From: Candidatus Cloacimonadota bacterium
GTDB taxonomy: Bacteria > Hydrothermota > E44-bin80
Reading direction: 5' to 3'
DNA: 36,637 nucleotides
NCBI GenBank assembly: GCA_004375965.1
Contig: SOIS01000054.1
Coordinates: 1 to 36,637 of the forward strand
Position 1 is the stretch's first letter. Each line of letters begins with the position of its first letter. A model generated the notes under the pieces. The model worked only from the letters and a program-made list of their open reading frames with translations. It was not told where the DNA came from and ran no database searches. The position numbers were made by a program, and so were the translations under genes. Positions 3,028 through 33,200 of the stretch are shown here, piece after piece.

Positions 3028-3303
3028 TCATGAAAGAAAAAAAGTCATATGATTAACCCTTTTTGAAAGTAAATCCACCTTTCTCTTAATATTTCCCATA
3101 TCCTTTCTCAGTCTATCAATATCCAAAACAAAAACCCCAGTTATTATAGCATTTCTGGGGCAAAAGTCAATGCACAAACCACAGTCAGTGCATTTTGAAT
3201 CGTCTATCTGTGCCTTTCCGGATGATAAATCAAAGGCACCCTCTGGGCACATCCTAATACAAAGTCCGCAACCTATACAGAGTTCCTCCCTGACGTAAAA
3301 CAT
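3028..3303 (-). CDS. 2x[4Fe-4S] ferredoxin, about 91 aa
   Basis: A small bacterial-type ferredoxin with two CxxCxxCxxxCP motifs (CIGCGLCIRMCP and CTDCGLCIDFCP). A C-terminal extension of about 35 mostly charged residues may form a helix. I place the start at the ATG at 3303, two bases after the FmdB-type stop (3306-3308), instead of the longer frame from 3327, because this makes a coupled start and removes an odd leader. It probably supplies electrons to the metal-cluster proteins of the cluster. Confidence 0.88.
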   Translation of the reverse strand: MFYVREELCIGCGLCIRMCPEGAFDLSSGKAQIDDSKCTDCGLCIDFCPRNAIITGVFVLDIDRLRKDMGNIKRKVDLLSKRVNHMTFFLS

Positions 3304-3305
3304 AA

Positions 3306-3557
3306 CTATCTCTTGTCTCTCCCACATGTTCCCGTTTCAGAACAGGGTGGTGTATCGCATCTCTCATTTCTTCCACAGCAGGTAGTTCCTTTCGTATTGG
3401 AACTTCCCATTCGTATGGATGCGGGAAAAGACAGTAATTTTACAAGTTTTTGAGAACCGCAGTTTGGGCAGGCTAATGCTTCCTGTGATCCTGGACTTCG
3501 TATGAAAAACTCTGTTACTTTACCGCATTTATCACACTTAAAATCATAAATAGGCAT
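3306..3557 (-). CDS. FmdB-family zinc-ribbon protein, 83 aa
   Basis: The N-terminus MPIYDFKCDKCG with a second CPNCGS pair forms the FmdB/CxxC_CxxC_SSSS-type zinc ribbon (residues 1-45). This is followed by a Cys-rich tail (TTCCGRNERC, PPCSETGTCG) that could bind further metal. FmdB proteins were named as putative regulators, but their function is not established. The stop lies 2 nt from the ferredoxin start, so the two are probably co-translated. A site aaaggag precedes the ATG. Confidence 0.85.
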   Translation of the reverse strand: MPIYDFKCDKCGKVTEFFIRSPGSQEALACPNCGSQKLVKLLSFPASIRMGSSNTKGTTCCGRNERCDTPPCSETGTCGRDKR

Positions 3558-4032: not shown

Positions 4033-4845
4033 CTAACTCTGTTTAGAAGAGTTTATTATCTTTTCAACTACTCTCATAAATGCTTTTGAAGCTTCTGATT
4101 CAGGATTTTCGAGGATAAAGGCTTTGCCACTATCACTTGATTGCACAATCTCTGGGTCTATTGGAATCCTTCCAAGAAACGGAACACCCATTTCCTTAGC
4201 AATCTTCTCTCCTCCGCCTTCCTTAAAGAGTTCAATCTTTTTTCCACAATGAGGGCAGATAAGCCCACTCATATTCTCTATTATTCCAACAACATTCAGG
4301 TTCAGCTTCCTTGCAAAGGTAACAGCCTTTCTTGAATCAAGAATGGAAACATCCTGTGGTGTTGTAACGATTATCGCACCTGTTGCAGGTATAAGCTGTG
4401 CAACAGAAAGAGGCTCATCACCTGTTCCTGGCGGAGAATCGATGATAAGCCAGTCAAGTTTGCCCCAATCTACATCACCGAGGAACTGTTGTATAACCTT
4501 CATCTTCAAGGGACCTCTCCATATTACAGGTAGATCCGGACTTTCTAATAGAAAAGCCATTGAAACAAGCCTCAGGTTCTTTGTAATCGGAACAGGCTGT
4601 ATCTTTTTCGCACTCGCAGCAACCATTCTCTTCCCTTCCACACCCAGCATTTTCGCAAGATTAGGTCCATGAATATCTACATCTAAAAGACCAACCTGTT
4701 TTCCTTTTTCTGATAGGGCAAGTCCAAGGTTAGTAGCAACGGTGCTTTTCCCAACTCCTCCCTTTCCACTAAAAACAAGAACTCTCTGCTTTATTTTCGA
4801 CAATGTTTCCTCTATATTCTTCTCTTGTTCTTCCTTCATACTCAT
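4033..4845 (-). CDS. mrp: Mrp/NBP35-family Fe-S carrier ATPase, 270 aa
   Basis: A cytoplasmic P-loop ATPase of the Mrp/ApbC/NBP35 family. It has Walker [10 protein letters not shown] (about residues 27-35), [10 protein letters not shown], the switch motif [13 protein letters not shown] and the conserved C-terminal CxxC (CPHCGKK) that holds a bridging [4Fe-4S] cluster between two subunits. Length matches the family. It overlaps the upstream NifX-fusion gene by an ATGA, so the two are translationally coupled. In some anaerobes an Mrp ATPase and a NifX-type domain occur as one polypeptide, which supports a physical partnership. Likely role: loading or moving an Fe-S or mixed-metal cluster onto the NifX-type proteins. 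Confidence 0.93.
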
Positions 4846-5474
4846 CCTTTCTTTTCGAGTTCTTTAATCCTTTTGTTAATTTCATCGATCTGATGTTTTA
4901 GTAATTCTGCTTGCTGCTTCATAAGTTCAAGTTCCTGTTTTTTATCCACTCCTTGAGGAGTCACTCCAGGCGGTTCTATTCCTGGCGGAATTGCTCCTGG
5001 ATACCCTGTTCCATAACCCATTCCTGCAGACATTCCTCTTCCCATACCCCTTCCCATACCTGCACCCATGCCTCTGCCCATTCCCCCACCCATGCCTCTA
5101 CCCATACCAAAGCCTGTACCAAAATGTGCACCAACATCCGGTGCCTGGGTAGGCTGGAATTGACCAGACTTAAATCTTGAAATAGCCTCCTTTACTGTCC
5201 CTACCATACCTGTAATGACCTTCACTCCTGCTGCACTGAGCGTTTGAAAAGCATTGGGTCCGCAACTTCCTGTAAGCACAAACTCTGCACCTTTGTTTGC
5301 AACAAGTTGAGCTGACTGTATTCCTGCACCTCCCATCGCCTGGACATTAGGGTTCTCAATAGCTTCAAACTTCTCTGTATCAGGGTCAATAATGATGAAA
5401 TAGGGGCATCTACCGAATCGAGGGTCTATCTGTGAAGTCAAATCCGTTCCTGAAGAAGTAATTGCAATTTTCAT
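4842..5474 (-). CDS. NifX-type cofactor domain fused to a Gly/Met-rich linker and coiled coil, 210 aa
   Basis: Three parts are visible. Residues 1-105 are a NifX/ORP-type domain ([31 protein letters not shown]). Residues 118-158 are a Gly/Met/Arg repeat of the GMGRGMG type. Residues 175-210 are a charged heptad-like helix ([19 protein letters not shown]). The last part strongly resembles the C-terminus of the upstream neighbour, so the two may form a hetero-coiled coil. Methionine-rich repeats can bind Cu(I), and the related orange protein carries a Mo-Cu cluster; a metal role here is inference. The gene overlaps both neighbours by ATGA (5471-5474 and 4842-4845), so the three are tightly coupled. 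Confidence 0.82.
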
Positions 5475-5836
5475 TTTTTTGTCTCCTCCAATTCTTTAAT
5501 CCTCATTTTTATTCCATCGAGTTCATCCTCTATCATTTCTGCTTGTCCTTTCAACATTTCCAGTTCTTTCTCTGGTGTTAAGGGTGCAGCTCCCCATGGG
5601 TCATAAGGTGTTGGAAAACCTTTCATAGGGAAACCTTGTACCTGCGTTGCGGGAACCTGTCCCTGCTGCCAGTAATAATCCATCTGAGGTGTGGGCCAGG
5701 TACCGTGTAAGAGATACTGAGCTGCAGGTCCTAATCCTGTAGGACTTCTTCCAACCCATCCAGGGCTATACCCAAATCTCATCCAGCCTGGTAAGCCTGT
5801 TAGATAGTACATATTTCTGTGTCCATATCCTCCCAT
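5471..5836 (-). CDS. DUF5320-like Trp/Tyr-rich protein with C-terminal coiled coil, 121 aa
   Basis: Starting at the ATG at 5836 gives MGGYGHRNMYYL. A perfect aaggagg lies 6 nt before it, so the longer frame from 5854 (which would translate the Shine-Dalgarno itself) is unlikely. The first 80 residues are rich in Gly, Pro, Trp and Tyr. The last 35 form a charged helix (EKELEMLKGQAEMIEDELDGI) like the tail of the following gene product. The family is DUF5320-like, function unknown. It ends in an ATGA overlap with the NifX-fusion gene. Confidence 0.7.
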   Translation of the reverse strand: MGGYGHRNMYYLTGLPGWMRFGYSPGWVGRSPTGLGPAAQYLLHGTWPTPQMDYYWQQGQVPATQVQGFPMKGFPTPYDPWGAAPLTPEKELEMLKGQAEMIEDELDGIKMRIKELEETKK

Positions 5837-5850
5837 TTTTTCCTCCTTTA

Positions 5851-5866
5851 GCATAATAAATTATGC
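5851..5866. promoter_or_regulatory. Inverted repeat just upstream of a ribosome-binding site
   Basis: gcataat and attatgc face each other across 2 bp, 1-2 nt upstream of the aaggagg that serves the gene at 5836. The loop is too short for a stable RNA hairpin, so a protein-binding site or a role in opening the ribosome site is more likely than termination. Confidence 0.35.
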
Positions 5867-5938: not shown

Positions 5939-6262
5939 CTAGTAGCGGAATCTTCTTCCTCTACCGCCACCTCTTCCTCCAAAGAATCCCATCCCATAAT
6001 ATGGTCTCATCGGCATAGGGTTTTGATATGGATACGGTGTAGGATAATATCCACCATACTGATACTGTCCACCATAGGGATACTGTCCTGGTCGCATATA
6101 ATCGTAAGGGTAACCTCCAAAACCTCCCCCTCGACCCAATCCAAGACCCATCCGAGGTACAGGATTGGCAAATCCAGGTGTTGAATAACCTGCACAGTAT
6201 CCAGCTGCCCTACCTGTCATAGATCCAAGACCTCTTGGTCCTGTTCCATCTCCTCCTGGCAT
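5939..6262 (-). CDS. DUF5320 Gly/Tyr/Pro-rich protein, first gene of the sigma-54 cluster, 107 aa
   Basis: It starts with the family signature MPGGDGTGPRG. A single Cys sits near residue 23 (AAGYCAGY). The rest is a Gly/Tyr/Pro-rich low-complexity stretch ending in an Arg-rich tail (GGRGGGRGRRFRY). No signal peptide or membrane segment is visible. It is the first gene behind the -24/-12 promoter and has a very strong aaaaggagg site 7-8 nt before the ATG, so it is probably made in quantity. A hairpin follows it. The function of the family is unknown; the low-complexity body suggests a scaffold or a condensate-forming partner, which is speculation. Confidence 0.78.
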   Translation of the reverse strand: MPGGDGTGPRGLGSMTGRAAGYCAGYSTPGFANPVPRMGLGLGRGGGFGGYPYDYMRPGQYPYGGQYQYGGYYPTPYPYQNPMPMRPYYGMGFFGGRGGGRGRRFRY

Positions 6263-6296
6263 TTAACTCACCTCCTTTTATCTACTATTAAATATA

Positions 6297-6312
6297 TGCA
6301 ATTTCTGTGCCA
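6297..6312 (-). promoter_or_regulatory. Sigma-54 (-24/-12) promoter of the DUF5320-NifX-Mrp-MinD cluster
   Basis: The minus strand reads TGGCAC-AGAAA-TTGCA, an exact match to the sigma-54 consensus with the required 5-bp spacer between the TGGCAC and TTGCA blocks. The predicted start is near 6286, giving a leader of about 24 nt to the ATG at 6262. The divergent gene encodes a sigma-54 activator with an intact GAFTGA loop. Confidence 0.9.
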
Positions 6313-6381
6313 GAATCCTATTTTAACTAAGTACCAAAAATTATAAACTTATCTATTTCACAAGTTAGGAAATTAACGAAA

Positions 6382-6421
6382 TTTGTTTCAATTATGAAAA
6401 TTTGTTTCAAGATGAAACAAA
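6382..6421. promoter_or_regulatory. Tandem enhancer-like sites for the sigma-54 activator
   Basis: A perfect 9-bp inverted repeat, TTTGTTTCA-aga-TGAAACAAA, occupies 6401-6421. A second, imperfect site starts with the identical TTTGTTTCA at 6382, exactly 19 bp away, or about two helical turns. The centre of the perfect site is about 100 bp upstream of the -24 box, the usual distance for an activator enhancer. It also lies 17 bp left of the -35 box of the activator gene, so autoregulation is possible. Confidence 0.72.
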
Positions 6422-6437
6422 CATATAAAAAGAAGTA

Positions 6438-6466
6438 TTGACAAAAGGAGGTATTTCAGTTATATT
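6438..6466 (+). promoter_or_regulatory. Sigma-70-type promoter of the activator gene
   Basis: TTGACA (6438-6443), a 17-bp spacer and TATATT (6461-6466) face the activator. The predicted start is near 6473. A 7-bp inverted repeat (gttgaat/attcaac, 6474-6493) sits at the start site and could be an operator or a 5' hairpin. Confidence 0.72.
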
Positions 6467-6558
6467 ATTATATGTTGAATCTTCAAATTCAACAGAGATA
6501 ATTTTTCAACTTGAAGTAACTACAAATGAAAGAATATGAAAAGGGAAATCAACTCTAT

Positions 6559-6582
6559 CCCCCCCTTTGAAAAAGGGGGGAC
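6559..6582. repeat. C-run/G-run hairpin repeat in the activator leader
   Basis: A stem ccccccttt/aaaagggggg with a tiny loop lies about 30 nt before the activator ATG. A related copy is at 28791-28809. This 'cccccttt..aaaggggg' motif is a common dispersed repeat in bacteria. In the leader it may influence translation. Confidence 0.6.
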
Positions 6583-6610
6583 AGGAGGGATTTATTAAAA
6601 GGATAAAGAT

Positions 6611-8314
6611 ATGATAACACAGGAAGCATATGAGGATTTCCTGGAGAAATTTTCTGATGGTGTAATAGCAATTGATAAAAATCTGAGGATTATTAGCTTT
6701 TCAAGGGGAGCGGAAAGGATAACCGGGCATAGGGCTAATGAGGTTACAGGACTTACCTGTAAGGAAGTTTTCAAGTCAACCATCTGTGAGAAGAGCTGTA
6801 TTGTTAAAATTGTATCGAAAACAGGTAAACCTGTATCAAACATTCGAGAAGATATAAAAAACGTCAACAATGAAACAATTCCTGTTTCTATAAATGCGTC
6901 ACCACTACTAAATATTCATGGAGAAGTAATTGGCGTTGTCATGAGTTTCAGAAATGTTCTTGAGGTCTACAAACTCACTGCTGATCTTTTCAAAGAATCT
7001 GTAAGGCTCCAATCTATTCTGAACTCTATTGCAGACGGTGTATTTACAGTAGACACCAATTGGCTTATAACAAGCTTCAACCCTTCTGCTGAAAAAATTA
7101 CAGGATATAAGAAAAAAGATGTTATTGGAAAACCCTGCAGTACTGTATTCGGAAGTGAAGTTTGCAGTAAGGATTGTCCACTCAGGAAAACTATTGAAAC
7201 AGGAAATACTATCACAAATTTTGAAATGGGTATTATCAATGAAAAGGGTGAAAAGATTCCTGTAAGCGTGAGTACAGCCTTACTGATAGACGAAAAAAAC
7301 GAGATTATTGGTGGCGTAGAAACATTCAGAGATCTCACAGTTTTGAAACAACTAACAAATGAGTTAAAAGGAAGATATAGTTTTGGTAACATTGTCGGGA
7401 AAAATCCCAGAATGCAGGAGTTATATAATTTGATTGAGACGGTTAGCAACACAAATTCAACAGTTCTTTTACTTGGTGAAACAGGAACAGGAAAGGATTT
7501 AGTCGCAAGAGCAATCCATTACAATTCACCAAGAAGGGATAAACCCTTTATTAAGGTTTCCTGTGCAGCATTACCTGAGTCACTACTTGAAAGTGAACTA
7601 TTCGGTCATAAAAAAGGCGCATTTACCGGTGCAATAAGGGATAAACCAGGAAGGTTTAAATTAGCAGACACTGGCACAATCTTCCTTGATGAGGTAGGTG
7701 AAATTCCTGTTTCAGTTCAGGTTAAACTATTGAGGGTGCTCGAGGAACAGGAGTTTGAACCCCTTGGCGATACAAAACCAACGAAAGTTGATGTGAGAAT
7801 TATTTCAGCAACCAACAGAGACTTAAAAGAGGCAATGAAGGAAGGAAAATTCAGAGAGGATCTCTTTTACCGATTGAATGTAGTTCCCATTTATATCCCC
7901 CCTTTAAGGGAAAGAAAGGACGATATACCACTTTTCGTTGAGCATTTTATCCAAAAATTCAACAAAGAGACAGGTAGGAATATCCTTTCTGTCTCAAGAA
8001 AGGCTATGGAAATACTGCTTGATAATACGTGGACTGGGAATGTAAGGCAGCTTGAGAATGTTATTGAGCATGCATTTGTTCACTGTGATGGGAAAACCAT
8101 CCAGGTTCAACATCTACCGGAAGAAATCAGGTCAAAGAAAGTGGAGGATAGATTTCTGGATACAGATAGACCTTTTGAAGAAATAGAAAGACTGGTCATA
8201 GTAAATGCATTGAAGAAAAACAATCACGATAGAGAGAAGACTGCCCATGTTCTCCATATTTCCAGAACCACGTTGTGGAGAAAGATGAAAAAATATGGGA
8301 TCAAGAAAATTTAA
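6611..8314 (+). CDS. Sigma-54-dependent activator with two Cys-motif PAS domains, 567 aa
   Basis: The layout is PAS (about 5-118), PAS (about 130-245), AAA+ (about 258-485) and a C-terminal Fis-type helix-turn-helix (EKTAHVLHISRTTLWRKM). The AAA+ part is complete: Walker A GETGTGKD (289-296), the sigma-54-contacting GAFTGA, Walker B IFLDEVGEIP and the FREDLFYRL arginine-finger region. Each PAS domain carries the same C-x8-C-x3-C pattern (C50/C59/C63 and C176/C185/C189), suggesting a redox or Fe-S signal. There is no receiver domain, so control is probably by direct sensing. It sits divergent to the metal-cluster operon and its -24/-12 promoter and is almost certainly its activator. Its stop overlaps that of the convergent gene by 4 bp. 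Confidence 0.95.
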   Translation: MITQEAYEDFLEKFSDGVIAIDKNLRIISFSRGAERITGHRANEVTGLTCKEVFKSTICEKSCIVKIVSKTGKPVSNIREDIKNVNNETIPVSINASPLLNIHGEVIGVVMSFRNVLEVYKLTADLFKESVRLQSILNSIADGVFTVDTNWLITSFNPSAEKITGYKKKDVIGKPCSTVFGSEVCSKDCPLRKTIETGNTITNFEMGIINEKGEKIPVSVSTALLIDEKNEIIGGVETFRDLTVLKQLTNELKGRYSFGNIVGKNPRMQELYNLIETVSNTNSTVLLLGETGTGKDLVARAIHYNSPRRDKPFIKVSCAALPESLLESELFGHKKGAFTGAIRDKPGRFKLADTGTIFLDEVGEIPVSVQVKLLRVLEEQEFEPLGDTKPTKVDVRIISATNRDLKEAMKEGKFREDLFYRLNVVPIYIPPLRERKDDIPLFVEHFIQKFNKETGRNILSVSRKAMEILLDNTWTGNVRQLENVIEHAFVHCDGKTIQVQHLPEEIRSKKVEDRFLDTDRPFEEIERLVIVNALKKNNHDREKTAHVLHISRTTLWRKMKKYGIKKI

Positions 8315-31088: not shown

Positions 31089-33074
31089 TTACTTCTCATA
31101 CCTTTCACCTTCTCTTACTGGAATTGTAAAGTAAAATGTTGCGCCCTTCCCGGTTTCTGACTCCACCCAGATACGTCCACCGTGGCGATCCACAATCTTC
31201 TTGCAGATTGCCAGGCCTACACCGGTGCCAGGACAATCTTGTATCCCATGTAGGCGCTGGAATATTAGGAAGATACGTTCATGGAATTCCGGTGCTATAC
31301 CTATGCCACTATCCCGAATGGAGAAAACCCATTCATTTCCTCTTTGCTCGGCAGCAGAATGAATAACCGGAGGTTCCCCACCACTGAATTTGATTGCGTT
31401 CGAAATGAGGTTCTGAAACAACTGAGTAATCTGCGAGGCATCGGCTATCACGATTGGCAGATGATCGTGGGTAATCACAGCTCCACTCTCCTCAATTGCC
31501 ACCTGTAGATTGGCGAGTGCTTGTTCGAAGGTGGCCTTACAGTCGGTCGATTTGAAGGGTTCTCCACGTGTACCCACGCGTGAATACGCCAACAGATCCT
31601 CAATCATAGTCTGCATGTGAGCTGCCCCATCCACGGTGTACGCAATGAATTCGTCTGCTTCTGCATCGAGTTTGCCTTTGTATCGCTTTGACAAAAGTTT
31701 CACATAGCTCGATATCATGCGTAGTGGTTCCTGTAGGTCGTGTGATGACACATAGGCAAACTGTTCCAGTTCGGCATTGGAACGCTGTAGTTCCGCTAAC
31801 ATTTTCTGAAGTTTTTCCTCCGCCCGCTTGCGCTCTGTGACATCAAGAATAATACTCTGAACGTGTGTGACAACGCCGTTTGAATCCTTAAGACCTTTAG
31901 AAAGACCCTCAATCCAACGGGCTTCTCCCGACTTTGTGATGAAGCGATATTCCTGAGCAAATTCCATAACCCCTCTTTGAAAATATTCAGCAACCTCTGC
32001 TTCAATTCTTGGAACATCCTCAGGGTATGTGATATTATCCCACGAAACTTGTCCCGATAGGAGTTCTTCCGGTGTATAACCGAATTGTTTTACGCTGTCC
32101 GAGACGAATTCTACCTGCCAACCCTCATCTAGCCGCCAAAGAAAAACTACTGCTGGACTTCTGTTGATGATAGATTCAAGTTCTCTCAGTTTTTCCAATG
32201 CACCCATCAAAGCATTCTCTACCCGCTTACGCTCGGTGATGTCTCGGAATATTCCCTGAATTATCGGCTTCCCTCCCACTAATATCAGCGAAGCTGTTAT
32301 GTGAACAGGCTTGACCTTTCCTGACATGGTTACCACCTCCGCCTCCTCGCCAACAGTCCCCTTCTGCTCTACGTGTCTCTTGAACATATCAGCAAAATAT
32401 TCCGCTTTCTCTGGAGGATGGAGTGTCGTCTGATGAAATCCTATTATCTCTTCTCTCTTCTTCTCTAAAAGCTCCTCCGCCGCCTTATTACAGTTAGTAA
32501 TCAAACTCGTCTCTGAATCTGTCCAGAAAATCGCATCCTTCGCACTTTCAAATGCTAGTCTGAATCCCTTCTCTCTCTCCTGCAACACCCCCTTTACCTG
32601 CTTACGCTCGGTGATGTCCCGGAATATTCCCTGAATTATCGGCTTCCCTCCCACTAATATCAGCGAAGCTGTTATGTGAACAGGCTTGACCTTTCCTGAC
32701 ATGGTTACCACCTCCGCCTCCTCGCCAACAGTCCCCTTCTGCTCTACGTGTCTCTTGAACATATCAGCAAAATATTCCGCTTTCTCTGGAGGATGGAGTG
32801 TCGTCTGATGAAATCCTATTATCTCTTCTCTCTTCTTCTCTAAAAGCTCCTCCGCCGCCTTATTACAGTTGGTAATCAAACCCATCTCTGAATCTACCCA
32901 GAAAATCGCATCCTTCGCATTCTCAAATGCTAGTCTGAATCCCTTCTCTCTCTCCTGCAACACCCCCTCTATCCGCTTACGCTCGGTTTCTGATGCTTCC
33001 AATTCGGAGATCCGCTGGCGAAATTTCTCTAACTCATTTATAAGTTGATCTTTTATCTTATCTTCATCTTCCAT
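31089..33074 (-). CDS. Cytoplasmic PAS-PAS-PAS histidine kinase with a duplicated PAS unit, 661 aa
   Basis: There is no membrane segment. An N-terminal coiled coil (DKIKDQLINELEKFRQRISELEASE) is followed by two nearly identical 125-residue PAS/PAC units, a third, different PAS domain (INRSPAVVFLWRL ... VTERKRAEEKL), a HisKA domain with SHDLQEPLRMI and an ATPase domain (NLISNAIKFSGG, RDSGIGIAPE, GTGVGLAICKKI). I start at the ATG at 33074 with aggag before it, not 33107. It heads an operon with receiver-GGDEF and receiver-HD-GYP proteins and should phosphorylate both. The PAS ligand is unknown. Confidence 0.93.
   Translation of the reverse strand: MEDEDKIKDQLINELEKFRQRISELEASETERKRIEGVLQEREKGFRLAFENAKDAIFWVDSEMGLITNCNKAAEELLEKKREEIIGFHQTTLHPPEKAEYFADMFKRHVEQKGTVGEEAEVVTMSGKVKPVHITASLILVGGKPIIQGIFRDITERKQVKGVLQEREKGFRLAFESAKDAIFWTDSETSLITNCNKAAEELLEKKREEIIGFHQTTLHPPEKAEYFADMFKRHVEQKGTVGEEAEVVTMSGKVKPVHITASLILVGGKPIIQGIFRDITERKRVENALMGALEKLRELESIINRSPAVVFLWRLDEGWQVEFVSDSVKQFGYTPEELLSGQVSWDNITYPEDVPRIEAEVAEYFQRGVMEFAQEYRFITKSGEARWIEGLSKGLKDSNGVVTHVQSIILDVTERKRAEEKLQKMLAELQRSNAELEQFAYVSSHDLQEPLRMISSYVKLLSKRYKGKLDAEADEFIAYTVDGAAHMQTMIEDLLAYSRVGTRGEPFKSTDCKATFEQALANLQVAIEESGAVITHDHLPIVIADASQITQLFQNLISNAIKFSGGEPPVIHSAAEQRGNEWVFSIRDSGIGIAPEFHERIFLIFQRLHGIQDCPGTGVGLAICKKIVDRHGGRIWVESETGKGATFYFTIPVREGERYEK
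32225..32974 (-). repeat. Tandem in-frame duplication, 2 x 375 bp, inside the kinase gene
   Basis: Units 32225-32599 and 32600-32974 are almost identical in DNA, including silent positions; the few differences cluster near the start of the PAS domain (for example SEMGLITN versus SETSLITN). Each unit is exactly 125 codons, so the frame is kept. A third start of the unit (gcttacgctcgg) at 32975 marks the boundary. Confidence 0.9.
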
Positions 33075-33200
33075 CTTGCATGCTCCTAAAACAGGCAGCA
33101 ATTTCATCTAACGCCTTACATCTGAAAGTGCTATGGATATACATCACTCTATGTAAAACATTGATTGGGCATTTTCTAAATTCATTTAGCATTAGTTAAA

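Follow-up and report, generated by a model that had tools for sequence, protein, structure and literature searches.

A conserved predicted sigma-54 control region between an activator gene and an ORP-type operon in a Hydrothermota bacterium

The 348-bp gap that separates a gene for a sigma-54 activator from a divergent ORP-type operon is, judged by its sequence and that of its counterparts, a real sigma-54 on-switch conserved in related bacteria, and through it the regulator most likely turns on the iron-sulfur ORP-type operon. The gap lies in a 36,637-bp stretch of DNA (the window) from a bacterium assigned to Hydrothermota. The first-pass annotation had read it as a control switch between activator and operon; all of the parts it named were located, and comparison with relatives supports that reading. 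Its preset test was conservation of the inverted repeat upstream of orthologous operons, which was found in two related genera and in more distant families. The design is already known from Desulfovibrio, so the layout is ordinary and the lineage is new. What is added here is a DNA motif, a single-operon regulon, and repeated linkage to feo genes.

Results

The ORP-type operon and its activator

The gap (6263-6610, 27.6% GC) is bounded by start codons at 6262 on the minus strand and 6611 on the plus strand. The operon runs on the minus strand from 6262 to 235. Based on Pfam/NCBIfam, it encodes two DUF5320 proteins (5939-6262 and 5471-5854), a Nitro_FeMo-Co/Di-Nase protein with DUF5320 (4842-5474), an Mrp/NBP35 ATPase (4033-4845), an FmdB zinc ribbon protein (3306-3557), a ferredoxin (3028-3327), a Nitro_FeMo-Co protein (2673-2996), and two MinD-type ATPases with ferredoxin inserts (1191-2135 and 235-1128); a thioredoxin-like protein (2251-2565) was recognized by reading the ORF by eye. 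The gene set resembles the anaerobe-specific ORP cluster (PMC6345978), with Mrp, Di-Nase, and MinD/ferredoxin genes all present. As for the MrpORP iron-sulfur carrier, an Mrp/NBP35 ATPase is encoded beside a Di-Nase protein, but the two are unfused and the two-domain MrpORP is absent (PMC6345978). The Mrp protein scores 383 bits against NF041136, under the 450-bit cut-off. No Rfam family was found in the window.

The activator (6611-8314, plus strand) is a protein of 567 aa, examined with Pfam and by alignment of 18 homologues. It has two PAS domains, an AAA+ domain with GAFTGA (PF00158, 4e-73), and a C-terminal HTH_8 domain (PF02954, 3.4e-12). An AAA+ domain with a GAFTGA loop, a Fis-type HTH, and RpoN encoded in the same genome (PF04552, 1.9e-56) identify it as a sigma-54 enhancer-binding protein. 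Activators of one family of the phylum (L048-L054) have GAFTDA in place of GAFTGA, as reported for DVU2106. Elsewhere in the window, a sensor kinase (31089-33107) has two near-identical PAS blocks in tandem, which seem to have arisen by a recent duplication within the gene.

Promoters

The minus strand reads TGGCACAGAAATTGCA at 6297-6312, which agrees with the earlier description of an exact sigma-54 promoter (consensus TGGCAC-N5-TTGCA); it is kept in genomes G002 and G003 and places the likely transcription start near 6286. It is the one exact sigma-54 site on the window contig. The 2.29-Mb genome has nine matches to the looser pattern TGGCAY-N5-TTGCW and one to its reversed control; of the eight other matches to the pattern, at least four fall inside genes. 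Between the activator sites and this promoter is an A/T-rich block, GATAAGTT..TAATTT (6334-6353, minus strand), with a core that is invariant in three genera. It matches the IHF consensus incompletely, and the genome has two HU/IHF-family genes; the block could be a candidate bend or IHF-like site.

The sigma-70-type promoter TTGACA-17-TATATT proposed for the activator gene was confirmed at 6438-6466 (plus strand), with 11 of 12 consensus bases, and is kept in G002. A second inverted repeat, TGTTGAAT-N6-ATTCAACA (6473-6494), lies where transcription of the activator gene is inferred to begin; it was not seen in the G002 gap. The activator leader also carries a G/C-rich hairpin, CCCCCCTTTGAAAAAGGGGGG (6555-6584). 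Four or more similar copies are found at other places in the genome, and the G002 leader has a related stretch. This hairpin is probably a dispersed repeat.

Candidate activator sites

Two candidate activator sites lie upstream of the sigma-54 promoter on the minus strand. The distal one (6401-6421, centred at about -125) is the perfect 9-bp inverted repeat noted previously, TTTGTTTCA-AGA-TGAAACAAA, with an N3 spacer. This sequence has its sole exact match here in the 2.29-Mb genome, and the next best match has three mismatches. The promoter-proximal site, TTTTCA-TAAT-TGAAAC (6385-6400, centred at about -106), has an N4 spacer that is kept in G002 and G003. Copies of TTTGTTTCA in direct repeat start at 6382 and 6401, so the reported second site exactly 19 bp away is present in the window, but this distance is not conserved (18 bp in G002); centre to centre, the sites are 17-19.5 bp apart in the relatives measured. 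The N3 half-site motif suggested from TTTGTTTCA fits the distal site, but a fixed N3 motif covers one of the two sites because the spacer of the second is N4 (TTTCA-ATTA-TGAAA). On sequence grounds the motif is better written GTT(T/G)CA-N3/4-TG(A/C)AAC.

The first-pass annotation had also proposed scanning this genome for the motif, and the scan recovered this operon but no other target operon. One other sigma-54-like match with an 11/12 site was rejected as a second regulon member, being intragenic and antisense. The predicted regulon in this genome is a single operon.

Conservation of the control region

Within the family, three genera have orthologues of the activator, and other families of the phylum have them too. 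Two related genera retain the paired sites, the sigma-54 site, and the ribosome-binding site. G002 (activator 80% identical) retains the whole gap layout. In G003 (81%) the activator gene is 3 kb off, behind fur-feoA-feoB, and the distal N3 and proximal N4 sites and the promoter still precede the operon. Genomes G010 and G101 have the activator gene and then the operon in tandem, with a sigma-54 site and two to three GTTTCA-N4-TGAAAC-like sites between them. The operon of G104 and G109 is several kb from the activator gene or on another contig of the draft assembly, and the sites are present. More distant families have GTTTCA/TGAAAC pairs upstream of the sigma-54 promoters of ORP-type operons. 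The region examined was between activator and operon for loci L007 and L008, and downstream of the activator for L006. G012 encodes a 63%-identical orthologue, and the stretch examined there showed no site or sigma-54 match near the Di-Nase gene.

Across 147 genomes of the phylum, we searched blind for a pair of half-sites followed 60-90 bp later by a sigma-54 site, with a reversed pattern as control. The search gave four matches, all at loci of an orthologue or close homologue of the activator, and the control gave none. When the distance was set to 90-120 bp, G010 and G101 were also retrieved, and so were two sites next to a GAF-type activator of G094. Matches in G018 and G134 at this distance were taken as chance; the stretches examined contained neither an activator gene nor an ORP-type gene. 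In shuffle tests of 19 upstream regions with GTT(T/G)CA half-sites, in which the T/G widening was chosen after looking, 16 regions had p ≤ 0.012, uncorrected for kinship; sites were weak in G110, G108, and G096 (p 0.06-0.10). The parts of the switch, their conservation, and the persistence of the motif at the operon can be read directly from these comparisons.

Similar sites were also seen at other loci. G094 has two tandem sigma-54 promoters beside its GAF-type activator (L082, 1608-2042), each with a perfect GTTTCA-N4-TGAAAC upstream, so the motif is not exclusive to the activator studied here. G023 encodes a second, 46%-identical activator, and like sites precede the sigma-54 promoter of a divergent ferredoxin operon (L077, 1501-1590); in the stretch examined, that operon is without the ORP genes of the window.

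Discussion

Activation of the operon through the paired sites

The arrangement suggests a mechanism that we hold with considerable confidence as a whole, including its one-operon regulon. The activator would be made from its own sigma-70-type promoter, and dimers of the protein would occupy both neighbouring GTTTCA/TGAAAC sites, centred near -106 and -125. The A/T-rich stretch that separates these sites from the promoter would loop, perhaps aided by an HU/IHF protein, and allow the AAA+ ring to touch sigma-54 RNA polymerase waiting at TGGCAC-N5-TTGCA. ATP hydrolysis by the activator would then open the promoter of the ORP-type operon. We infer that the activator binds and activates, that the DNA loops, and that the signal is iron or iron-sulfur status perceived via the PAS domains.

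The inverted repeat alone is not significant: when the gap was shuffled 2000 times with dinucleotides preserved, 131 of the shuffled sequences (6.5%) had a perfect repeat of the same or greater length. It is convincing because of its conservation and context and not its own length, and its recurrence in other genera and families, together with the empty control of the blind search, leaves a chance occurrence with almost no credibility. It is somewhat less implausible, though still improbable, that the regulator bound at the sites is another activator of the genome or a repressor, and not the product of the neighbouring gene. The genome has about 14 activator-like matches, and in G094 it is the GAF-type activator that adjoins sites of the same sequence. 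Against this, genomes with the sites at ORP-type operons have a homologue of this activator, its loci account for four of four matches in the first blind search, and further targets were not found in this genome.

A further question is whether the sites serve mainly the activator's own sigma-70 promoter, with the operon secondary. They lie just upstream of that promoter in the window and in G002, and the D. vulgaris activator represses itself (PMC3897727). However, the inverted repeat ends at 6421, and the -35 element begins at 6438, leaving 16 bp and no overlap. In ten relatives, the 300 bp upstream of the activator gene contain no site that scores 11/12 or better, and the sites before the operon remain; the motif also keeps its place before ORP-type operons when the activator gene is several kb distant or unlinked. 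Sites that strong were also absent upstream of fur in five of the six relatives examined, the exception being G003, where fur and the ORP genes share an upstream region. Because the motif is absent before the activator gene in those ten relatives and kept before the operon, operon control is the conserved role. Autoregulation of the activator in the window is possible, and as the main function of the sites we regard it as very unlikely. Activation of the operon by the neighbouring gene product is the reading that we prefer.

A possible iron or iron-sulfur signal

All 18 aligned homologues share C176 of the second PAS domain, and C185 and C189 of that domain are nearly invariant. In G003, G104, G109, G111, and G096, the activator gene is immediately preceded by feoB in the same orientation; in G108 and G110, feoB is a few genes upstream of it. 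G101 has fur-feoA-feoB about 4 kb from the activator gene in opposite orientation, and distant feoB homologues precede the activator gene in G135 and G137. Among the loci of relatives, L044 (4928-9170), L049, L053, L054, and L055 have the activator gene after fur-feoA-feoB or feoA-feoB. The feo-linked cases include several genomes from one family and are not all independent; three or four families are involved. The conserved PAS cysteines and the fur-feoA-feoB clusters suggest an iron or iron-sulfur input. Given the feo linkage, the cysteines, and an operon for an Mrp-type iron-sulfur carrier and iron-sulfur proteins, our best guess is that the activator responds to iron or iron-sulfur status. 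The specific proposal that the activator senses it through C176/C185/C189 of the second PAS domain, and so couples fur-feoA-feoB uptake to ORP/Mrp expression via sigma-54, is tentative and rather doubtful.

Comparison with known systems

In D. vulgaris, the same control logic has been demonstrated experimentally for orp1/orp2 and DVU2106 (PMC3897727). Both systems have ORP-type genes, a sigma-54 promoter, and a neighbouring activator gene with a sigma-70 promoter (PMC3897727). Both also have palindromic sites about 90-130 bp upstream, identified here from sequence and conservation, and the palindromes were compared by layout only. There are several differences. D. vulgaris has two divergent operons, whereas the window has one sigma-54 operon, with Mrp and Di-Nase domains in separate proteins. 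The activator sites overlap the sigma-70 promoter in D. vulgaris and lie off it here, and the IHF site between activator sites and promoter has a candidate block as its counterpart here. TGTTTCA-N3/4-TGAAACA fits the TGT-N11/12-ACA form of sites in the D. vulgaris sigma-54 regulome (PMC4641369), while the sites studied here have the inner bases TTCA/TGAA in common. The literature searched contained no published site for this lineage.

Many of the examined Desulfobacterota loci have an activator homologue (42-54% identity) close to MrpORP; the association is therefore either old or frequently transferred. The motif was not found in the 1.5-kb flanks of Desulfobacterota MrpORP loci. Longer stretches contained activator homologues, and strict patterns gave few promoters or sites there: in Desulfosarcina, GTTGCA-N4-TGCAAC lies 120 bp upstream of a sigma-54 site, and there were a few partial matches.

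These results extend the control logic of the Desulfovibrio orp operons to a lineage that had not been studied. They provide a testable predicted binding motif, which recurs with the T/G change in examples drawn from several phyla, and the linkage to feo suggests what signal ORP activators may respond to. If that signal is correct, an iron- or iron-sulfur-sensing activator would be an anaerobe-type route of iron-sulfur control.
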